Shown here in pieces: positions 3,388 to 22,454 of a stretch of DNA of 32,027 nt. The DNA is from Gaiellales bacterium (GTDB lineage Bacteria > Actinomycetota > Thermoleophilia > RBG-16-64-13). The translations under genes and the position numbers were made by a program. Within the stretch, counting starts at the first letter, position 1. Each line of letters starts with the position of its first letter. The DNA lies in assembly GCA_012719395.1 (NCBI GenBank), contig JAAYAL010000036.1:1-32027 (forward strand). Reading direction: 5' to 3'. Below the pieces are notes generated by a model, which saw nothing but the letters and a program-made list of their open reading frames with translations, was not told where the DNA came from and searched no databases.

Positions 3388-3666
3388 ATGCGCCCACTCA
3401 AGCTCGATGAGGACATCCGGCCCCTTTCGGAATTCCGCGCTCAGATCGCGTCGTTCGTCAAGCGCGTGAACGAAACCAAGCGTCCGCTCGTGCTCACGCA
3501 GCATGGCCGCGGCACTGTCGTCGTTGTCGACATCGCGGAGTATGCAGCAATGCGCGAGCGGCTCGAGACCATCGACGACATCGCCACCGCACGGGCGCAG
3601 CTTGCCGCCGGCGAGGGCATCGCGCATGGCCAAGCCAAGGTGAAGGTACTTGACCGACTTGCCTAG
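3388..3666 (+). CDS. Phd/YefM-family antitoxin
   Basis: The 92-residue protein has the antitoxin plan: an N-terminal DNA-binding segment 'RPLSEFRAQIASFVKRVNETKRPLVLTQHGRG' (about 11-42), the hydrophobic strand 'TVVVVDIAEYAAM', and a C-terminal helical tail (about 58-92) that should wrap the toxin. It should neutralise the downstream ParE-like toxin and repress their shared promoter, whose TGTACA-type operator is visible at 3357-3376. The start has AAGGAG 7 nt upstream. Its stop (TAG) comes one base before the toxin ATG at 3668, so the two are translationally coupled. The pair lies between two diverged copies of a lipoprotein 3' end. Confidence 0.85.
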   Translation: MRPLKLDEDIRPLSEFRAQIASFVKRVNETKRPLVLTQHGRGTVVVVDIAEYAAMRERLETIDDIATARAQLAAGEGIAHGQAKVKVLDRLA

Positions 3667-3667
3667 G

Positions 3668-3997
3668 ATGCGCGTCGTCTGGTCACCGCGCGCCATCGAC
3701 CGTGTGGTCGAGATTGCCGCCTACATCGCCAAAGACAGCCCCGCCGCCGCACGCGATTGGGTCGAGCGGCTCTTCGCACATGTGGACACACAGCTCGCGG
3801 CGTTCCCACTCAGCGGCAAGCCCGCCCGTGATGTGGACGCAGGCGATGCGCGCGAGCTCGTCTTCGAGTCCTATCGCGTCTTCTACGACGTGAGGGATAC
3901 GGTCCAGATCCTCACGGTCAGGCGCGGCAGCGAGCTCATCGACGCAGATGAGCTGCGCTCAGGCCCCAAGCAATCTCCCACCGCGCATCGGCCGTAG
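3668..3997 (+). CDS. ParE/RelE-superfamily toxin
   Basis: Starting MRVVWSPRAIDRVVEIAAYIAKDSP, this 109-residue protein matches the ParE/RelE fold: an early beta strand, two helices ('AARDWVERLFAHVDTQLAAFP'), then 'LVFESYRVFYDVRDTVQILTVRRG'. ParE relatives poison DNA gyrase and RelE relatives cleave mRNA; the sequence resembles ParE more, but the target is not decided. A TTG at 3650 with AGGTGA upstream would give six more residues and a 17-base overlap with the antitoxin; I prefer ATG at 3668. The last codons (about 'KQSPTAHRP') are encoded inside repeat copy B, so the natural C-terminus may have been replaced when the module landed here. Confidence 0.8.
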   Translation: MRVVWSPRAIDRVVEIAAYIAKDSPAAARDWVERLFAHVDTQLAAFPLSGKPARDVDAGDARELVFESYRVFYDVRDTVQILTVRRGSELIDADELRSGPKQSPTAHRP

Positions 3998-4070
3998 CTG
4001 CTTCACCGCCTGCCGGTAGGCGTCAAGGACCTTGGGTCCTCTCCAGCGCCCCCATCGACATAGCCGTCTC
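3971..4070. repeat. Repeat copy B, at the 3' end of the 610-residue lipoprotein gene
   Basis: This is the second copy of the sequence at 3136-3240. It covers the last 16 codons of the lipoprotein (minus), its stop, and about 50 downstream bases that can be read 'DAYRQAVKQLRPMRGGRL' in another frame. On the plus strand it supplies the last nine codons and the stop of the ParE toxin. Confidence 0.65.
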
Positions 4071-5855
4071 CACCATGGCCCCCTCCAGGGCGGCGGGTCC
4101 CACCAGGTAGAGGGCAGGCTGGCCGACACCCACGCGCACCCAGGTCACGTCGCCCCAGGCCGCCACGCTCACCGCGCCCAGCGCGGCCGTCTCCCCCACC
4201 TCACGCCAGGCCGCCCCGGCCGGTGCCGTGGACAGGCCGGCCAGCAACCAGAAGCTCGCCTCGCGCGTCTCGGGGTCGCTGGTATAGCGCATTCCCCACC
4301 AGGTGGGCGATAGGTTGGGGCAGTCCACCACCGGCGGGGTGGCGGAACCGGCCGAGGCACCGCCCGGCGCCGCCGATGGGCTGTAGCTCTCCGCGAGCAC
4401 GAAGCCGTCCGGCAACGTCCCAGGCAGTGCCAGGAGCATGTCGATGCCGCGGTAGCCGGCGCTGAGCAGGTCGGCCAACTCCCCCCGCGAGAGAGGCTGC
4501 CGCCGCGCGTCGTTCTCCACCGCCCGGTACGGCGACTCCAGCGTGGCCTGTGCCAGCATCTGGAAGACCCAATTCGGCGAGCTCATCTCCTTCTCCGCCT
4601 CTGCATTGCCCCAGGTGAAGACACCCAGCCCGCCCTCTTTCTGCCACGGGTACCAGGGGCGTATCTGCAGACTCATGGGCGCCGACGACGTTCCGCTGGC
4701 GTTGTCCTCGATGCCCATGGCCGCCTCGGCCACCTCCTCGGTGGTGGCGTAGAACATGATGGGTCGATCAGCCGCGGCGGCGGCGCGGATGCGCTCCACG
4801 TAGTCCAGGGGGTCCACCTCGTCCCCCATCACCCAGAGCGGCTTGTTGATGGCCGTGGGGTCCACGAAGGCCGATGGCTGTTCCGTGCGCGGCGCGGGAA
4901 GCGGCGTGGGACCAGAGTAGAAGAAATCGGGAAGATGAACGCTCTTCTCCGGGATGACCTCCACGTTGCCCGCCCAGAAGCCGAGGTACATGCCGCTCTC
5001 GAGCGCCCGAGCCAGCCCCTCCTCCTCCGACAGGGCCGGGGGGTCCGCCTGCAGCGTGGCCAGCGTCAGCGCATCGTAGACCTCAGTGCGGGTGGGCGTG
5101 GGCCCGATCTCCTTCGGCGGCTGCACCCAGTAGTCGACGGGCACGATCTCGCCTTGGGCGAGGGGCTCCTTCGTCCAGGGCAAGTAGCGCACGAAGGTCC
5201 GGGCGGTGACGGTGTCATTCAACGGCTGATTGGCGCCCGGCGGCACCCCCAGCACCTCCGACACGGCGGCCAGAGCAGCACCCACCACCAGGATGGGCCG
5301 CCCCGCCTCCTTGGCCGCGGTCATGATGGACCGGGCGGAGCTGAGGTCCTCGCCTTCCGCGAACACCCACAGGGGCTCGAGGATGGAAGCTGGATCCAGG
5401 AAGGTGGCCGTCGAAGTGATGAAGTCCGGCAGCTGGGGTAATCCGTTGTCCGGCGGCTCCTGGTAGAACTCAGGCGGGAACCGGTCGGTGTCCGCCGGGA
5501 AGACCTCCACGTTCCCCGCCCATAGCCCCCATTCCTGGCCGGAGGGCCACACGAAGGAGAACCTCGGGTCTTCCGAGATTGGCCTGCGGCCGGTGACGGC
5601 GTACTCCAGGTAGGCGAGGACCTCGTCCGCGCCGGAGGGCGGTGGGACGTCCGCGACCGATGGCGGCGGCGTGGACGCGGTGGTCGACGAGGAGGCCACG
5701 GCGGTTGAGGATGCGTCCGTGCCGGAGGGAGCACCGCTTTCCGTGGTACTGGAGCCACAGCCGGCCACCGCGACCACAAGCAGGACCAAGAGCACTGATG
5801 CGCCCACGCATCGCCGCAGGGTAGAACCACCATATGATCGACGACCGTTTTCCAT
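4023..5855 (-). CDS. Lipoprotein with internally duplicated domain, function unknown
   Basis: The start is the ATG at 5855 (MENGRRSYGG), preceded by GGAGG at ideal spacing; the upstream extension lacks sense. A signal peptide ends in lipobox VAGC, followed by a Ser/Thr/Pro linker to about residue 72. Two similar modules follow. Module 1 (about 75-250) has 'WAGNVEVFP', then 'FLDPASILEPLWVFAEGED'. Module 2 (about 255-420) has 'WAGNVEVIP', then 'FVDPTAINKPLWVMGDEVD'. Each continues with a helix, a strand '(R)PI(L/M)(V/F)' and a 'PW' segment. A different C-terminal domain (about 425-610) ends 'SMGALERTQGP'. No enzyme motif is apparent. Broken copies of the same family lie at 8329-8421 (N-terminal part) and 3136-3240 (C-terminal end), both on this strand, pointing to past tandem copies. 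Envelope localisation is well supported; function is unknown. Confidence 0.8.
   Translation of the reverse strand: MENGRRSYGGSTLRRCVGASVLLVLLVVAVAGCGSSTTESGAPSGTDASSTAVASSSTTASTPPPSVADVPPPSGADEVLAYLEYAVTGRRPISEDPRFSFVWPSGQEWGLWAGNVEVFPADTDRFPPEFYQEPPDNGLPQLPDFITSTATFLDPASILEPLWVFAEGEDLSSARSIMTAAKEAGRPILVVGAALAAVSEVLGVPPGANQPLNDTVTARTFVRYLPWTKEPLAQGEIVPVDYWVQPPKEIGPTPTRTEVYDALTLATLQADPPALSEEEGLARALESGMYLGFWAGNVEVIPEKSVHLPDFFYSGPTPLPAPRTEQPSAFVDPTAINKPLWVMGDEVDPLDYVERIRAAAAADRPIMFYATTEEVAEAAMGIEDNASGTSSAPMSLQIRPWYPWQKEGGLGVFTWGNAEAEKEMSSPNWVFQMLAQATLESPYRAVENDARRQPLSRGELADLLSAGYRGIDMLLALPGTLPDGFVLAESYSPSAAPGGASAGSATPPVVDCPNLSPTWWGMRYTSDPETREASFWLLAGLSTAPAGAAWREVGETAALGAVSVAAWGDVTWVRVGVGQPALYLVGPAALEGAMVETAMSMGALERTQGP
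4026..4040. terminator. Short perfect hairpin at the stop of the 610-residue lipoprotein gene
   Basis: AGGACC-TTG-GGTCCT spans the stop codon region of the minus-strand gene. Pairing is conserved in the diverged copy at 3192-3205 through paired base changes. It lacks a T-tract; it may be a weak terminator or an mRNA-end structure. Confidence 0.35.
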
Positions 5856-5953
5856 CGGCCCTCCTTCCTTCGTAGCCCAGAGCCCAGTTGCCCCCGCCCC
5901 ACCAGTGACACGCAAACGCGGCACCCTACTCCTTCCCAACCTGGATCAGTGCG

Positions 5954-8254
5954 TCAGCCAACCCCACCAGCTTGTCTAGCCCACCACAGCTGATACGGAA
6001 CCTTCTCCGCGGCAGCTTGAGGTGCAATCCAGGCAACTGCCGGAGGGGTGGGACGCTCTTCGCCATCCGCCGTCACCCGACTCGCCTCGAGGGTCTCCCT
6101 GAGCCAGCCCGCCACCTGCGACGCCTCCAGCACCAGCGCACGCTCGCTCGTCGAGATCTGGCCGGAGGGCAGCGCGAGTGAGTACCAGCCCATCTCCGCA
6201 TCTGTCTCGTTCCAGAAGTCAAGCCCCACGCGACCGCCATCTGCCGTGTGCAGAATGGCCCCCCATTCGGACGTTGGGGGATCCCAGGTTCGGTCCCGTC
6301 CCGCCTTGAGGGTCGCCGACGTGAGCCGCGCTCGAAGGGCGTCAAGCTCGGCGGAAGTCAGCGGCCGGGAGGCGGCCCCGTGAGACCACCGCCCCTCCGC
6401 GGTGAGTTCTTGGTCGGCGGTGATCGCGGCGATAGCCTGCTGGAGAAGCTGAGTGTCGCTCGGTCTCAGATCCATACGCAGCAGGTTCCACAAGAGCTGC
6501 GCACCCTCCCCACGGGTGGCCGCCTGCCACGGATCCCACTCTCGACCGTAGCCGAGCAGGCCGTTCATGAGGCCGTTGTCCTCAGCCACAGCCAGGCTGC
6601 GAGCGTGTGTGGCATCGAAGTTGCCCGGGAGAGGCGCGTAGCTTGACTGGGTATCAAGCAGCAATCCGGGCTGTATTTGCTGCGCCGCCCGCACGGTGAG
6701 CGTGACCAACTGGGCCCGACCAGCCGGCTGCCAGGGGTGGAAGGAGCCGTCGGGATAGCCCTGGATGAGCCCCGCCTCAGAGGCCGCCGCGATGTAATCG
6801 TGAGGGTACAGGGAATCGGGGTCGTCGGGACCCAGGTCCCAGAACGGCGCCCTCAGGCCCTCGTCCACGGTCAGGTCCAGTGCTTCCACCAGCATCTTGG
6901 CGTACTGGGCGCGCAGGTAGGTCTCCTCAGGGCGAAAGACCGCATGACCTCCGCTCTCGTACCCGGCGACAACGCCTTCCTCGAATAGCGAGACGATGGC
7001 CGTACGGTACAGATGGGTGCCCGAGATGTCGGCGAAGGGTTCCGCCTCCGCGGCCGGTGCAGTGCCCACGAAGAGATGCTCCGAGGCCGCGATGGAGCTG
7101 GAGGATTCGGGGAACCAGTGCGGCGGCAACCGTGGCCACCCGTCATTCTCGAGCACCGTGCTGATCCAGTAGGCCCGGGTCCCGTCGGTCGCGAAGGGCA
7201 GCCCCCGCAACAGTTGCCCAAGCTCAGTCAGATGGTGGTCCGTGATGTCGTAGGCGAAGAGCGTCATGGGAGCGGAGGAGAGAAGACCATAACCGGCCTG
7301 AGCCCGGAACAGGACGGTGTCTCCCGCGATCTTGATAGGTCCCAACAGATGGTGGGGCATGGGCACTCGCTCGTGGGACCCCGCTTCCAGGTCATAAATC
7401 GCCACGAAGGCGCCTGCCTCGTCCATGGCCGTCCAGGCCAGCCTCTGGGCGGTCTCGTCTGCGGCCAGTGAGGAGATACGACCATCCTCCGACTCAGGGA
7501 TACGCGTGAAGGTCCGGTCGCGAAGATCCATGAGAGCCAGGCCTTTGGCCACGGACTCCCCCGGCAAGACCGGTGCCGACACAACCACCCGGTCGCCCAG
7601 AAGAGCGTAGAGGCCGCCCTGGACCTCCGGGTACACGTGTTTCTCGGCTGCTTTGGTGTCGTAGGCGAAGAGAAGATCGCTCCCGTCCGCCTGGTGCTCC
7701 CGCCACACCACCCAGCGATCACTCAAGAGCAGGGGCAGACTCCACCCGAAAGTGCCTTCGTTCAACGCCGTATTGGTGCCGGCGGCGATGTCATAGAGGT
7801 TGAGTACGACGCTCTCGTTGCTGCCTCCCAGCCACAGCAGCCTTCCGCCCTCCAACACCGGAGCCCCATAGACGAATCCGGAGGCTATCCGGCGGTCATC
7901 TTCGCCCGAGAGCGAATGTAGGAGGAGCCCATCGATGCCTTGGTCTGAAGACAAGGTGAGCCAAGCTACCCAGTCCCCTTCGATCACGGGAGCAGCCCCC
8001 CGGGTGCCTGGCGCTGTGAGCGTGACCGTGGTGCCGGCGACGGCATTGCGCAGCACCACTGCATCCTCGGCAGTGTGGTAGACGATACGGCCCGCGTCGA
8101 CCGATAACTGCTGCCAATCCCCCACCGCCGCACGCTCCGCGGTCCACTCCACCTCCCAGCCGGCCGGCGCCCCCATGGCGGGCTGTGCCCACTGGAGGGC
8201 CGCCAGCAGCGCGAATGCCAGCGTCGCCCACAGTAGTCGATTGCTCCTTGGCAT
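5954..8254 (-). CDS. Secreted beta-propeller protein with three SLH modules and a fused C-terminal domain
   Basis: The 766-residue protein starts at the ATG at 8254 (AGGAGG upstream) with a signal peptide cleavable near Ala29. Residues about 35-395 form TolB/DUF5050-like propeller blades, with repeats such as 'DRWVVWREHQADGSDLLFAYD'. Three SLH modules follow: about 406-465 ('FADISGTHLYRTAIVSLFEEG'), 470-525 ('DYIAAASEAGLIQGYPDGSF') and 540-598. These typically bind secondary cell-wall polymer and hold the protein in the S-layer. From about residue 602, 'LLQQAIAAITAD' opens a domain also found right after the lipobox of the lipoprotein at 10383-11537 ('LLQQALASIAAD', 'GRDR(T/S)WDPPT', 'EMGWYSL'). 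The fused form thus joins two neighbouring genes. Likely a surface-attached binding or structural protein; ligand unknown. Confidence 0.85.
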   Translation of the reverse strand: MPRSNRLLWATLAFALLAALQWAQPAMGAPAGWEVEWTAERAAVGDWQQLSVDAGRIVYHTAEDAVVLRNAVAGTTVTLTAPGTRGAAPVIEGDWVAWLTLSSDQGIDGLLLHSLSGEDDRRIASGFVYGAPVLEGGRLLWLGGSNESVVLNLYDIAAGTNTALNEGTFGWSLPLLLSDRWVVWREHQADGSDLLFAYDTKAAEKHVYPEVQGGLYALLGDRVVVSAPVLPGESVAKGLALMDLRDRTFTRIPESEDGRISSLAADETAQRLAWTAMDEAGAFVAIYDLEAGSHERVPMPHHLLGPIKIAGDTVLFRAQAGYGLLSSAPMTLFAYDITDHHLTELGQLLRGLPFATDGTRAYWISTVLENDGWPRLPPHWFPESSSSIAASEHLFVGTAPAAEAEPFADISGTHLYRTAIVSLFEEGVVAGYESGGHAVFRPEETYLRAQYAKMLVEALDLTVDEGLRAPFWDLGPDDPDSLYPHDYIAAASEAGLIQGYPDGSFHPWQPAGRAQLVTLTVRAAQQIQPGLLLDTQSSYAPLPGNFDATHARSLAVAEDNGLMNGLLGYGREWDPWQAATRGEGAQLLWNLLRMDLRPSDTQLLQQAIAAITADQELTAEGRWSHGAASRPLTSAELDALRARLTSATLKAGRDRTWDPPTSEWGAILHTADGGRVGLDFWNETDAEMGWYSLALPSGQISTSERALVLEASQVAGWLRETLEASRVTADGEERPTPPAVAWIAPQAAAEKVPYQLWWARQAGGVG

Positions 8255-8328
8255 CCTGCCCCTCCTCTTACGCCAGACTCGCCGCTTCTACCACGTAACA
8301 CACCGAACGAAGCCTGATTCTCCACTGC

Positions 8329-8421
8329 CCCCGTTTCCTGGCCGGACGGCCACGCGAAGGAGAACCTCAGATCCTCACTCAGCGGCCTGGGGCCGGTGAT
8401 GGCATACTCCAGGCACGCGAT
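8329..8421 (-). pseudogene. Fragment of a paralog of the 610-residue lipoprotein (module 1)
   Basis: Read on the minus strand, this piece gives 'CLEYAITGPRPLSEDLRF' and 'SFAWPSGQE', matching 'YLEYAVTGRRPISEDPRF' and 'SFVWPSGQE' in the lipoprotein at 4023-5855. DNA identity is about 80%. Neither the signal peptide nor the continuation is present, and the frame breaks down past this point. It sits between the two SLH genes, showing that a second copy once lay here. Confidence 0.7.
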
Positions 8422-8462
8422 CCCTCCTTCGCGCCGCATCCAGTCACACCCGCCGCGCGCTG

Positions 8463-10292
8463 CTACTCTCCCACGTCGCGCAGGTGGACCACCCGCGACA
8501 GCACCACAGCCGCTTCCTCCCTTGTCGCCGGCCGCCAGGGATCCCAGCCCGGGCCGAAACCGGCAATCCCCCTCAGCAGGCCGTGGTATTCGGCCACGCG
8601 CATGGCCTCGGCGTGAGCCGGATCAAAGTTGCCCAGCGCACCGACGAAATCCCCGGGCGCGGAGAGCTCGCCCACCGACATGACGGCCGCCGCCCGCACG
8701 GCCAGCGTCACCAACTGCGCGCGGCTACGCTCCGCCCAGGGTGCGAACGTACTGCCATCGATACCACGTACCAGCTTCGCCTCAACCGTGGCGTTGATCG
8801 CCTGTCGGGTCAGACCGGTCATGGCGTCATCCAGATCAGTGAACGGCGCCGGGGGAGACGCAGCCGGGTTGAGATCGGCCGTGTACATGAGCGCCACGGC
8901 CGCCTGCGACCGCAGCAGCGGCTCTTTGGGCCGGAACTCAATGCCGTCCGCCAGGCGATAGCCGCGCATGAGGCCCCAGCGACCGGCATCTGCCACCTCA
9001 TCGGGGTAGGCGCTCGCCTCGAGATCGCAGAAGGTCACATAGGGCGGGGTGGGGCCAGGTGGCGTGGCCGGTGGCGTGCCGGCCGTGGTGACCACGATCT
9101 CGCGGCTGTCGGTGAGAGCGCCCTCGATCTCCCGATACCAGACCACCCGCCCCTCGTCCAGTTGCGGCCAGCTGCCCTGGAGCCCTGGCGTACCCTGCAC
9201 GGAGGTGATGCCTGTGCCTACATCGTAGAGGTGAAGCTCGTTGAACAGCTGCGCGCTGTCGGTCCAGATGGCCAAGGCGCCGTCCTTCTGCAGGCGCCCC
9301 ATCGCGAACCCGGCAGCCAGGGTGGTGACATGGCCGGTGGCGAGGTCGCAGAGCATGACGTCCCGCGCGGTCGCGGAGAGCCAGGCGACGCTCGGCAGCG
9401 GCGAGGCGTGCCAGAGCACCATGTTGCCGCCCACCTCCGGTTCGTAGTCGGTGAGGTCGTTGTCGGTGAGCCGCTGGGTGGTGTCCGCAGCGATGTCGTG
9501 GACGTAGATCTCCAGGTCCTGGCCGTCGAAGGCGGCCCAGACGGCCTTGCCCGCGGCCAAGAGCCTATGGTCGCTGTAGTCGGCGAGCGGCGCCGCCAGT
9601 TCGGCCAGGGTCGTCCAGGAGCCCGTCGTCCAATCGTAGAGCCGCAGGACAGCGCCGCCTGCGGCCGCCGTCTCCTGGGCGAGTACGTACCGGCCGTCGG
9701 TCCACGCCCGCGCCGGAGACGCGCTGGAAAGCGTGCGCACCTCACCGGAAACCAGGTTCTTACCGAGAAGCGTGGTGACCGGAGCGCCATTGCCGCCGGC
9801 TTGGGAGGTGACCCAGACCACGAGGTCGCCTTCCAGGTCATACCCGCCGATGCCGGACGGCCCACCCAACCGTGCGGCTCCGCCCGTCTCCAGATCCAGC
9901 GCCCAGAGGTCCATGGCCGGGTAGTACTCGCGGGAGGCAGGGTCGGCCTGATGCAGCCAGACGACGTGATTGCCGGACACCTCGGGGTAGTCGTCCCGGC
10001 CCAAGTCATCCGTCAGTTGCCGTATCTCGCCCGTGGCGAAGTCGTAGAACATGATCTCGTGATCGTGGCCGTCCCAGGCACGCCACACCATGCGGTCACC
10101 GCAGACAAACGGGATCTCGTCGTCCACGTTGTTGCGGGTGACCTCGGTGGTGACGAAGGCCTGAGCCCCCAGGGCAGGGCCCGCCGGAACAACACTCACC
10201 GCCACCGCAGCGACCACCACGGCGAGGCCCAGCACCACGCGCCACACCAACCTCCACCCTGGCCTGGCAACCCGGTTCTTCGTCTGCCTCAT
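8463..10292 (-). CDS. Secreted beta-propeller protein with three C-terminal SLH modules
   Basis: I take the ATG at 10292 (MRQTKNRVARPGWR), with AAGGAG 6 nt upstream, because it begins a good signal peptide ending near 'GPALGAQA'; the longer frame is not supported. The 609-residue product has propeller blades of the TolB/DUF5050 kind up to about residue 395: 'DEIPFVCGDRMVWRAWDG', 'EIMFYDFATGEIRQLTDD', 'EIYVHDIAADTTQRLTDN'. Three SLH modules fill about 421-609, including 'FTDLDDAMTGLTRQAINATVEAKL' split as strand-helix, and 'ATREEAAVVLSRVVHLRD'. It is a paralog of the 766-residue protein but stops after the third SLH module, without the extra C-terminal domain. It lies 90 nt downstream of the lipoprotein gene that encodes that domain separately, so the two are probably one transcript. 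Confidence 0.85.
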   Translation of the reverse strand: MRQTKNRVARPGWRLVWRVVLGLAVVVAAVAVSVVPAGPALGAQAFVTTEVTRNNVDDEIPFVCGDRMVWRAWDGHDHEIMFYDFATGEIRQLTDDLGRDDYPEVSGNHVVWLHQADPASREYYPAMDLWALDLETGGAARLGGPSGIGGYDLEGDLVVWVTSQAGGNGAPVTTLLGKNLVSGEVRTLSSASPARAWTDGRYVLAQETAAAGGAVLRLYDWTTGSWTTLAELAAPLADYSDHRLLAAGKAVWAAFDGQDLEIYVHDIAADTTQRLTDNDLTDYEPEVGGNMVLWHASPLPSVAWLSATARDVMLCDLATGHVTTLAAGFAMGRLQKDGALAIWTDSAQLFNELHLYDVGTGITSVQGTPGLQGSWPQLDEGRVVWYREIEGALTDSREIVVTTAGTPPATPPGPTPPYVTFCDLEASAYPDEVADAGRWGLMRGYRLADGIEFRPKEPLLRSQAAVALMYTADLNPAASPPAPFTDLDDAMTGLTRQAINATVEAKLVRGIDGSTFAPWAERSRAQLVTLAVRAAAVMSVGELSAPGDFVGALGNFDPAHAEAMRVAEYHGLLRGIAGFGPGWDPWRPATREEAAVVLSRVVHLRDVGE

Positions 10293-10382
10293 GCCCCACT
10301 CCTTCCTGTCATCGCCCGGTACCGGCGATCGGCCGCCGCCGCCACCTCGCCAGGACACCGACACCATTCTCGCTCCCCTCGC

Positions 10383-11537
10383 CTACTCACCCTCGAACGA
10401 CTCGAGGTAGGCCGAGACACCCATCACCTGCGCCCCGTCGACCTCCCACACATCCCGCACCCAACCGACACGTTGCGCGGTGATCAGATCACCGAAGTAG
10501 GCCACGTTCGTCTCCAGCGGCCGGCCCCAGGTGTCCACCGTGAGCGTCACCGGGATCTCGATACGGACTATGTACCCCAGCTCCATGGCCCAATCCGTGG
10601 CGGCGCCCAGGTAGGGCCGGCAGAGGTCATCGCTGCGCACGACGCCGCGGACCGTGAAGGTGGACCCATCGGTGCTTCTCTCCACGCCCGCCTCCGGCCG
10701 AATGAGCTTGAGGGCGTGATAGGGCTCGCTGAGCAACCCCCACCACACGGCGATGACCCGCTCCGCGGCCTGGACGCCGGCCCTCTCGGGGAAGTCCGCC
10801 GCCGAGATCTCCCAGTAGCGGGGAGCCGCGGGAACCTCGCTCTCCGCCGGCGCGGACAGCAGATCGAATTGGCCATTCACGGCCACCAGCAGGCGGTCAC
10901 CGGTGATGACCATCGACCCTCCATAGCCCACGGCGGCCTCGCCCCCCTGACGATAGAACCAGGCGTTCCCCGGCTGCGCGAGGTCCAGTACGATGGCCAT
11001 GCAATCGGCCGCCTCGATCCACCTCACCGCCGCGGCCACCACCTGCCCGGCCGTGGGGTCGGCGGGGAGGGCGGCAGGCCACGCTCCCTCCTTGAGCCAC
11101 GACGCCACCTGCGCCGCCTCCAACACCAGCGAGCGCTCGCTATTGGAAACCTCACCGGTGGGAAGCCGAAGCGAGTACCAGCCCATCTCGACGTCCGTCT
11201 CATCCCAGCAGTTGAGCTCCACCCGACCGCCCCCGGCCGTGCTCAGGATCGCGCCCCATTCCCCCGTGGGAGGATCCCAGCTGCGGTCCCGCCCCGTCTT
11301 CAGCGTGGCCGCTCCCAGGCGCGTCACCAGTTCCTCCGCCTCCGCCGGAGTGAGCGCGCGCATCCCCCGGCCGCCGTACCAGGCTTCCACGGTGACGCCC
11401 TTATCGGCCGCGATGGAGGCCAAGGCCTGCTGGAGAAGCTGTTCATCGTCCGGGCCGCAGCCGCAGAGGGAAAGACCGAGCGCCGTAGCCAGCAGCGTCC
11501 AGAGGCCGAAGTCCACGCGTTTCACGCGGCGGATCAC
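10383..11537 (-). CDS. Lipoprotein carrying the domain that is fused to SLH modules in its paralog
   Basis: The GTG at 11537 is the likely start (MIRRVKRVDFGLW). GAGG lies 5 nt before it and it gives a proper signal peptide with lipobox LCGC (Cys27). It also overlaps a relic TGA stop by GTGA, as coupled genes do. Immediately after the lipobox, 'LLQQALASIAADKGVTVEAW' begins a domain (about 32-150) closely matching residues 602-720 of the 766-residue SLH protein. The rest (about 150-384) is extra: a beta-rich segment around 'MVITGDRLLVAVNGQFDLL' and a C-terminal part ending 'VSAYLESFEGE'. No catalytic signature is seen. The ATG at 11558 would give a poor signal peptide. Located on the outer face of the membrane; function unknown. 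Confidence 0.8.
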   Translation of the reverse strand: MIRRVKRVDFGLWTLLATALGLSLCGCGPDDEQLLQQALASIAADKGVTVEAWYGGRGMRALTPAEAEELVTRLGAATLKTGRDRSWDPPTGEWGAILSTAGGGRVELNCWDETDVEMGWYSLRLPTGEVSNSERSLVLEAAQVASWLKEGAWPAALPADPTAGQVVAAAVRWIEAADCMAIVLDLAQPGNAWFYRQGGEAAVGYGGSMVITGDRLLVAVNGQFDLLSAPAESEVPAAPRYWEISAADFPERAGVQAAERVIAVWWGLLSEPYHALKLIRPEAGVERSTDGSTFTVRGVVRSDDLCRPYLGAATDWAMELGYIVRIEIPVTLTVDTWGRPLETNVAYFGDLITAQRVGWVRDVWEVDGAQVMGVSAYLESFEGE

Positions 11538-11593
11538 GGTTGCCTCAGATCCATACACAGCAGGTTCCTCAGCACCTGGGCGCCCTCCGCCGC
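11534..11593 (-). pseudogene. Relic C-terminus of an SLH protein directly upstream of the lipoprotein
   Basis: In minus-strand reading, 11593-11534 gives 'EGAQVLRNLLCMDLRQP' and a TGA stop. It aligns with 'EGAQLLWNLLRMDLRPS' at the end of the third SLH module in the 766-residue protein. The upstream part of that SLH gene is gone. The TGA overlaps the GTG start of the lipoprotein, preserving the ancestral two-gene junction. Confidence 0.7.
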
Positions 11594-11838
11594 CGTCCTG
11601 CCCCTTTGCGCCTCACCAAACGCCACAACGCCGCCGCCCCCATGGCAAGCAGCGTGACCAGGGAGATCAGGACAGCGATGGGAAGGGGGCGCTCATCCTC
11701 CTCGATCGGCCGGTTGCTCTCCCCTCGCCGTGCCCTCAGCATCCAGTAGGAGGTGCCCGCGTTGCCCATGCCGAAGGCGGTTTCGGAGCCCAGGTACCCC
11801 ATCTTCTCCCGCGATTCCTGCGACTGCTCGTGCATCAC
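11569..11838 (-). CDS. Short protein with C-terminal membrane anchor, possibly a gene fragment
   Basis: With GTG at 11838 (GGGAGG 8 nt upstream) this encodes 89 residues: a polar N-terminus (MHEQSQESREKMG), then a single hydrophobic helix 'PLPIAVLISLVTLLAMG' near the C-terminus, followed by 'LVRRKGAGRRRR'. The helix-plus-basic-tail layout is that of a C-terminal anchor of a surface protein, but no LPXTG-type motif precedes it. The last codons run into the SLH relic in a different frame, so the natural end was probably altered by the same rearrangement. It may be a small membrane protein or the surviving tail of a larger one. Confidence 0.4.
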   Translation of the reverse strand: MMHEQSQESREKMGYLGSETAFGMGNAGTSYWMLRARRGESNRPIEEDERPLPIAVLISLVTLLAMGAAALWRLVRRKGAGRRRRAPRC

Positions 11839-11930
11839 GCGCTCGCCCTCCCTTGCACCTGGCATCGACCCATTGCGTCCTCGGATCGCCGCCGATTCCG
11901 GGCCTTCTGTTCACGTCCTGTACCGGCGAT

Positions 11931-21173: not shown

Positions 21174-22454
21174 TTACTCGTCTTCTGGGCCAGCCTGTTC
21201 GTCTGCATCCGACTCCACATCTGCTTCCGGCTGCTCGGCGGCTTCCGCCTCCTCGTAGTCGGAGGGCTCAGCAGGCGCAGGCTCCTCGTAGCCCTCTTCC
21301 TCTTGCTCCTCCATCACATCTTCGTGAATACGGTATTCCGGCTCAAGCCGCTTGAGGCTCAGGGAGAGACGCCGACGATCTGGATCTAGCTCGATGATCT
21401 TGACGTTGATCTCCTGGTTCACCCGCAGGATCTCCGAAGGCTCCTCCACGTGGTGGTTGGCCAGCTCGGAGATGTGGATGAGACCTTCCACGCCCTCCTC
21501 GATCTCCACGAAGGCACCGAAGGAGACCAGCTTGGTCACGCGACCGTGCACGATCTCGTTGACCTGGCGGTTCTCGAAGACCTGCTGCCACGGGTCCTTC
21601 TGCGTCTGCTTGAGGCCCAGGGAGATACGCTGGCGATCCCGGTCGATATCCAGGACCTTCACCGTCACCTCTTGGCCGATACCCAAGACTTCCGACGGAT
21701 GGTTGACGTGACTCCAAGAGAGCTCGGAGATGTGAATGAGGCCGTCTATGCCGTCCAGATCCACGAAAGCACCGAAGTCCACGATGTTGGAGACGGTGCC
21801 CTTCACCAGATCCCCCACGTTCATGCTGTCCAGGATCTGCTCGCGAACGCCGCGGCGCTCCTCTTCCAGCACGGCGCGACGGCTGAGGACCACGTTGTTG
21901 CGGAAACGGTTGAGCTCGATGACCCGGCACTGCAGCATCTTGCCCAGGAACTCGTCGAGGTCCGCCACCCGGCGGATGTCCACCAGGGAAGCGGGGAGGA
22001 AACCACGCACGCCCAGATCAAGGATGAGACCGCCCTTGACCACCTCGATGACCGTCCCTTCCACGGGAGTGCCTTCTTCGGCCGCCTTCTCGATCCTCTG
22101 CCAAGCACGCTCGAAGCGGGCGCGCTTCTTGGACAGGATCAGCCTGCCGTCCGCATCCTCCTTGGTGAGGACGAGAGCGTCCACAACATCCCCAACAGAC
22201 ACTTCCTCGCTGGGATCAATGGACTTCTTGATCGACAGCTCGTTGACGGGGATGACCCCTTCGCTCTTGTAGCCGATGTCAACAAGGACTTCATCCTTGT
22301 CTACCCTCACTACCGTCCCGGTGACGATGTCTCCCTCTTCGAAGGTGACGAGAGTGGCGTCATAGTTGGGGACCATCTGGCCATCAACTTCGATCATGAG
22401 ATCCTGGCCACCCTGGAGGGTTTCGGTTGTTTCCTCGATTGGTTGATCTGACAT
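21174..22454 (-). CDS. rpsA: 30S ribosomal protein S1
   Basis: The 426-residue protein has four S1 RNA-binding modules at about 41-110, 127-195, 212-280 and 297-365. Typical segments are 'GDIVTGTVVRVDKDEVLVDIG', 'DLVKGTVSNIVDFGAFVDL' and 'GLIHISELA'. A long acidic tail (about 385-426) follows. Four modules is the usual actinobacterial and Firmicutes form, against six in E. coli. S1 helps mRNA bind the 30S subunit. ATG 22454 (MSDQPIEETTE) follows AGGAGG at a rather long 12-nt spacing. A promoter-like TATACT lies upstream, between it and polA. Confidence 0.95.
   Translation of the reverse strand: MSDQPIEETTETLQGGQDLMIEVDGQMVPNYDATLVTFEEGDIVTGTVVRVDKDEVLVDIGYKSEGVIPVNELSIKKSIDPSEEVSVGDVVDALVLTKEDADGRLILSKKRARFERAWQRIEKAAEEGTPVEGTVIEVVKGGLILDLGVRGFLPASLVDIRRVADLDEFLGKMLQCRVIELNRFRNNVVLSRRAVLEEERRGVREQILDSMNVGDLVKGTVSNIVDFGAFVDLDGIDGLIHISELSWSHVNHPSEVLGIGQEVTVKVLDIDRDRQRISLGLKQTQKDPWQQVFENRQVNEIVHGRVTKLVSFGAFVEIEEGVEGLIHISELANHHVEEPSEILRVNQEINVKIIELDPDRRRLSLSLKRLEPEYRIHEDVMEEQEEEGYEEPAPAEPSDYEEAEAAEQPEADVESDADEQAGPEDE

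Follow-up and report, generated by a model that had tools for sequence, protein, structure and literature searches.

The 766-residue protein F766 consists of an SLH protein joined in frame to part of a lipoprotein domain, X, and an unfused paralogous form of the same junction lies in the same gene array; the DNA comes from an uncultured actinobacterium. We consider it highly probable that F766 arose through duplication of a block of genes, after which the SLH gene was lost from one copy, while in the other a deletion fused the SLH gene to X, which was then truncated. This reading is drawn from the sequence, namely from the homology of the two regions, the stretch that is missing from one of them, the reading frames, the truncation of X and the unfused outgroups. 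All of the genes of interest are on the minus strand of the window (the whole 32,027-nucleotide stretch of DNA that was analysed, which belongs to a draft genome of 92 contigs). Read 5' to 3', the array consists of an AbiEi/AbiEii pair, a 98-residue ORF, an SLH-end relic, X1, S1, a Y relic, F766 and Y. The features are as follows.

11569 to 11865, minus strand: 98-residue ORF with a C-terminal membrane-anchor-like end.
11544 to 11591, minus strand: relic of a third SLH module, of which just the end is left, with no SLH gene upstream.
11442 to 11543, minus strand: stretch missing in the fused copy, containing the last SLH codons, TGA, GTG start, signal peptide and lipobox.
11534 to 11537, minus strand: GTGA, the overlapping SLH stop (TGA) and X1 start (GTG), read from the sequence.
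10383 to 11558, minus strand: X1, an intact lipoprotein gene (ORF with a lipobox-like LCGC after a hydrophobic stretch).
8463 to 10367, minus strand: S1, an unfused propeller and SLH protein of 634 aa, an old paralog of S2.
8322 to 8436, minus strand: Y relic between S1 and F766, 79% identical to 5634 to 5526 and no longer an intact gene.
5954 to 8254, minus strand: F766, 766 residues (ORF; Pfam SLH match, E 1.4e-11; X homology; GC3 by segment).
6465 to 8254, minus strand: S2, the SLH-protein part of F766; its orthologs in two sister genera are unfused and 611 residues long.
6452 to 6464, minus strand: fusion junction, 13 nt.
6095 to 6451, minus strand: X2', the retained lipoprotein-domain core, fused in frame (DNA alignment with 11441 to 11088).
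5957 to 6094, minus strand: the F766 C-terminal tail, which lacks DNA homology to X1.
4023 to 5858, minus strand: Y, located downstream of F766 and encoding a lipoprotein of 611 aa when read from the ATG at 5858.

F766 comprises a signal peptide, a beta-propeller-like region, three SLH modules (approximately residues 400 to 597), truncated X (residues 598 to 719) and a 47-residue tail. X1 is 391 aa long if it begins at GTG 11558, as in the ORF listing, or 384 aa from GTG 11537. For Y, we chose the ATG that precedes the lipoprotein signal as the start; the ORF listing gives a TTG at 5939. The AbiEi/AbiEii pair (13489 to 11931) is a toxin-antitoxin pair located directly upstream of the SLH relic, and the stop of the 98-residue ORF falls inside the relic, as if the end of another gene had been joined there. 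Elsewhere in the window there is a direct repeat of ~170 bases (21350 to 21522 and 21608 to 21777) that is 69% identical.

An earlier note on this DNA, made from the sequence without database searches, had described DNA homology running from the end of the third SLH module into the X domain in both paralogous regions. Alignment of the two junction regions confirms this. On the minus strand, positions 11591 to 11544 align without gaps with 6512 to 6465, where the third SLH module of F766 ends (84% identity over 45 nt, with an E value of 9e-7 by blastn within the window). When the same SLH-end DNA was compared with the whole genome, the relic was recovered at E 1.9e-7, and the next-best site was no better than E 0.3. 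The relic has a local alignment score of 66, and the highest score reached by any of 300 shuffles was 40. Homology therefore does extend upstream of 11534, and the relic that the note had placed at 11534 to 11593 is real, although its aligned extent is 11544 to 11591. The X homology follows in two blocks, 11441 to 11378 with 6451 to 6388 and 11360 to 11088 with 6367 to 6095, of which the longest is 77% identical. Both the SLH-tail relic and the X homology are beyond chance.

Between the SLH and X homologies, the unfused copy has 102 nt (11543 to 11442) and the fused copy has 13 nt (6464 to 6452), so that the unfused copy is longer here by 89 nt. The SLH stop lies in this additional DNA, as do the stop/start overlap and the lipoprotein signal peptide, which we read by eye as RRVKRVDFGLWTLLATALGLSLCGC, a hydrophobic stretch followed by L-C-G-C with the lipobox cysteine. 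This lipobox signal is absent from X2', the stretch that encodes it being the one missing at the junction. The absence of a signal-peptide stretch from F766 had been noted before, with an estimate of ~85 bases near 11455 to 11541; the missing DNA amounts instead to 89 nt within 11442 to 11543. The SLH-frame TGA is at 11536 to 11534 and the X-frame GTG is at 11537 to 11535, which gives the 4-nt GTGA overlap that had been proposed; coupled neighbours in prokaryotes are most commonly arranged with a 4-nt GTGA or ATGA overlap (PMC10666635). Division of 89 by 3 leaves a remainder of 2, the sole class of length that unites the two overlapping frames, so a loss of 89 nt joins the SLH and X frames exactly as the overlap requires. 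The resulting junction is in frame, at a domain border and at the start of the mature lipoprotein. A whole-genome search with the signal-peptide stretch gave no match elsewhere in the genome, indicating that it does not derive from a copy of another gene.

The fusion described in the earlier note is indeed in frame, but only ~120 residues of X (X1 residues 36 to 157 of 391) are retained in F766. The X homology ends at 6095, so that the C-terminal ~235 residues of X1, ~60% of X, are lost; the remaining 234 residues of X1 gave no significant DNA match beyond this position. The last 47 codons of F766 have a GC3 of 0.57, compared with 0.80 in the retained core (binomial p ~0.0003) and 0.78 to 0.87 in most neighbouring genes. 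By this measure they look noncoding, and in the tail the reading frame may simply run on into DNA that was once noncoding. The end of the X homology at 6095 together with the low GC3 of the tail indicates that the event was a fusion plus a truncation.

Since X2' is truncated and is followed by codons that look noncoding, the fused domain may now be decaying. It is even possible, though we lean against it, that X2' has no role and is a dead product of decay, a pseudogene fragment reached by read-through from S2. This alternative concerns present function only and is compatible with origin of the fusion by deletion. Consistent with it are the loss of the C-terminal half of X, the GC3 of the last 47 codons and the other relics that fill the locus (the Y relic, the repeat of the Y end and the SLH relic). 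Against it, the junction falls precisely at the start of the mature lipoprotein, and all 112 aligned codons of the X1/X2' core are open, with a dN/dS of ~0.25 (bootstrap range for the larger X block, 0.13 to 0.40). Changes at codon positions 1, 2 and 3 number 26, 18 and 49, so that third positions account for approximately half. In simulations in which one copy was neutral since the duplication, a dN/dS this low was obtained in ≤0.3% of runs, and the frame was kept open in only ~20%. As judged from these substitution patterns, X2' was under constraint, rather than neutral, for most of its history, although the dN/dS signal of the core could date from before the fusion.

If the fused domain does still function, the fusion would have changed its anchor. 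X1 is predicted to be held at the membrane by its lipid, while the retained X core would be carried on an exported protein held at the wall by SLH modules. The SLH modules of F766 (44.6 bits) and S1 (24.2 bits) are above the Pfam PF00395 cut-off of 20.8 bits. The genome also has a match over the cut-off to PF04230, and its score with the CsaB equivalog model, 206.2 bits, is slightly under the cut-off of 213.1. Binding of SLH modules to a pyruvylated wall polymer would call for a CsaB-like pyruvyl transferase. From these features, we infer the surface locations of X1 and F766, and continued function of the fused domain would have to be assumed in addition. That the change was an adaptive switch, in which X was moved from membrane to wall by fusion to SLH modules while the lipoprotein copy was kept, thus placing X in two envelope layers, we regard as unlikely.

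The state of S genes elsewhere gives polarity to the fusion. Within the same family, two sister genera (G004 and G011) each encode an ortholog of S2, with 54% identity over almost the full length. Both orthologs are 611 residues long, stop within ~12 residues of the end of SLH3 and terminate in GEGAQVLWNLLKRDVGEGLAR followed directly by the stop codon, just past SLH3. A scan of genome contigs with S2 returned only these two unfused orthologs, and no X was found downstream of either one in these genomes, which are 76% and 78% complete. S1 likewise ends just past its SLH region. The unfused orthologs and the stop of S1 after its SLH region argue that the unfused S gene is ancestral. The stop codon of the relic and, independently, the unfused orthologs support the conclusion that the fused state is probably derived, in agreement with the polarity proposed in the earlier note.

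The other half of that proposal, that the ancestor had two coupled genes, stands less broadly. The 48-nt SLH relic directly before X1 does point to a former S-X adjacency within this genome, and from the relic and the fused copy together it follows that the S-X pair would pre-date the duplication. However, a survey of relatives recovered S unfused and X in none of them, and no S-X pair, coupled or fused, was found in any other genome searched. Because X was found in no relative, the ancestral coupling is read from the 48-nt relic in one genome. Unfused homologs thus exist for both partners, for S in the sister genera and for X only as X1 in the same genome.

X is an orphan, found only in this genome among the genomes searched. 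A profile of both copies found no relatives in 399 genomes drawn from the class or in 396 drawn from the phylum (the two draws overlap, for a total of somewhat fewer than 800 actinobacterial genomes), and a scan of 84,980 species with two short patterns returned nothing. There was no above-threshold match in Pfam, NCBIfam or PDB sequences, and the structure predicted from the two copies had a mean pLDDT of only 34. Two candidate carriers were rejected. A weak tblastn match of the fused tail (L034/L035) was dismissed based on our reading of the sequence, in which the 445-aa frame resembles an ABC-transporter substrate-binding protein, and an SLH protein (L018) with a match running past its SLH modules was dismissed because its C-terminal part is not X-like.

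The opposite direction of change, in which the fused gene is ancestral and X1 became separate by gaining, through insertion or in place, the DNA that holds the stop, start and signal peptide, could draw on the presence of fused and unfused frames side by side in the same genome and on the restriction of X to this genome, by which X itself gives no outgroup. We nevertheless consider such a fission very improbable. The S2 orthologs in the sister genera lack the X part and stop after SLH3, and it is the fused copy that is truncated. An insertion would have to bring a stop, a start, a ribosome-binding site and a complete lipoprotein signal together, and nowhere else in the genome is there a source for the signal-peptide stretch. 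Least credible of all, to the point that we give it almost no weight, is misassembly of the two paralogous regions into a chimera, which a draft of 92 contigs containing paralogous stretches might invite, since the paralogs, at 77 to 84% identity, are too different for ordinary short-read chimeras and the junction is in frame at a domain border.

Identities of 77 to 84% are shared by all of the duplicated stretches of the array (the two X copies, the two SLH tails, the Y relic and the Y-end repeat), while S1 and S2 have 27.5% protein identity. The similar identities agree with a single duplication of an S2-X-Y block that later lost pieces unevenly, S1 being an older paralog; that one duplication made all of the pairs is our inference, as is the order of events that follows. 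An ancestral block of S (an SLH protein), X and Y (both lipoproteins), with S and X joined by the GTGA overlap, would have been duplicated in this lineage. One copy would have lost S except for ~48 nt of its end, which still precede intact X1. From the second copy, ~89 nt would have been deleted, comprising the terminal codons and stop of S together with the start and signal peptide of X, including the cysteine that carries the lipid. S would thereby have been joined in frame to the mature start of X, whose C-terminal half would have gone in a second change. The DNA separating F766 from Y has no significant resemblance to the end of S1 or to the X1/S1 junction.

At its other end, the array contains a repeat of the Y end with ~50 downstream bases (4070 to 3971 with 3234 to 3136, 82% identity), and a Phd/RelE toxin-antitoxin pair is located on the plus strand (3388 to 3997) between the two copies of the Y end. 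Y itself holds one domain twice; a lipoprotein-like gene with a single copy is present in G009 (L005, L044).

A single genome thus shows a gene fusion both before and after the event, as the unfused paralogous junction and the fused copy, with unfused outgroups in addition. If the fused domain works, a single deletion can turn a lipid anchor into a wall anchor. F766 resembles other SLH surface proteins (PF00395), of which this bacterial family has many paralogs, in being exported and in having propeller-like repeats followed by SLH modules; unlike its orthologs, it continues past these modules into an additional orphan domain. X1 has the hydrophobic signal and L-C-G-C of bacterial lipoproteins, but its domain has no above-threshold match in Pfam, NCBIfam or the PDB sequences. 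Gene fusion by deletion is a well-known and ordinary kind of event, of which this is a well-preserved case. As in other fusions of coupled neighbours, a stop codon and an intergenic or overlap region were lost to give a single frame. In contrast with those, the lipoprotein signal peptide appears to have been deleted as well, with a predicted change of anchor, and the unfused paralogous junction survives in the same genome.
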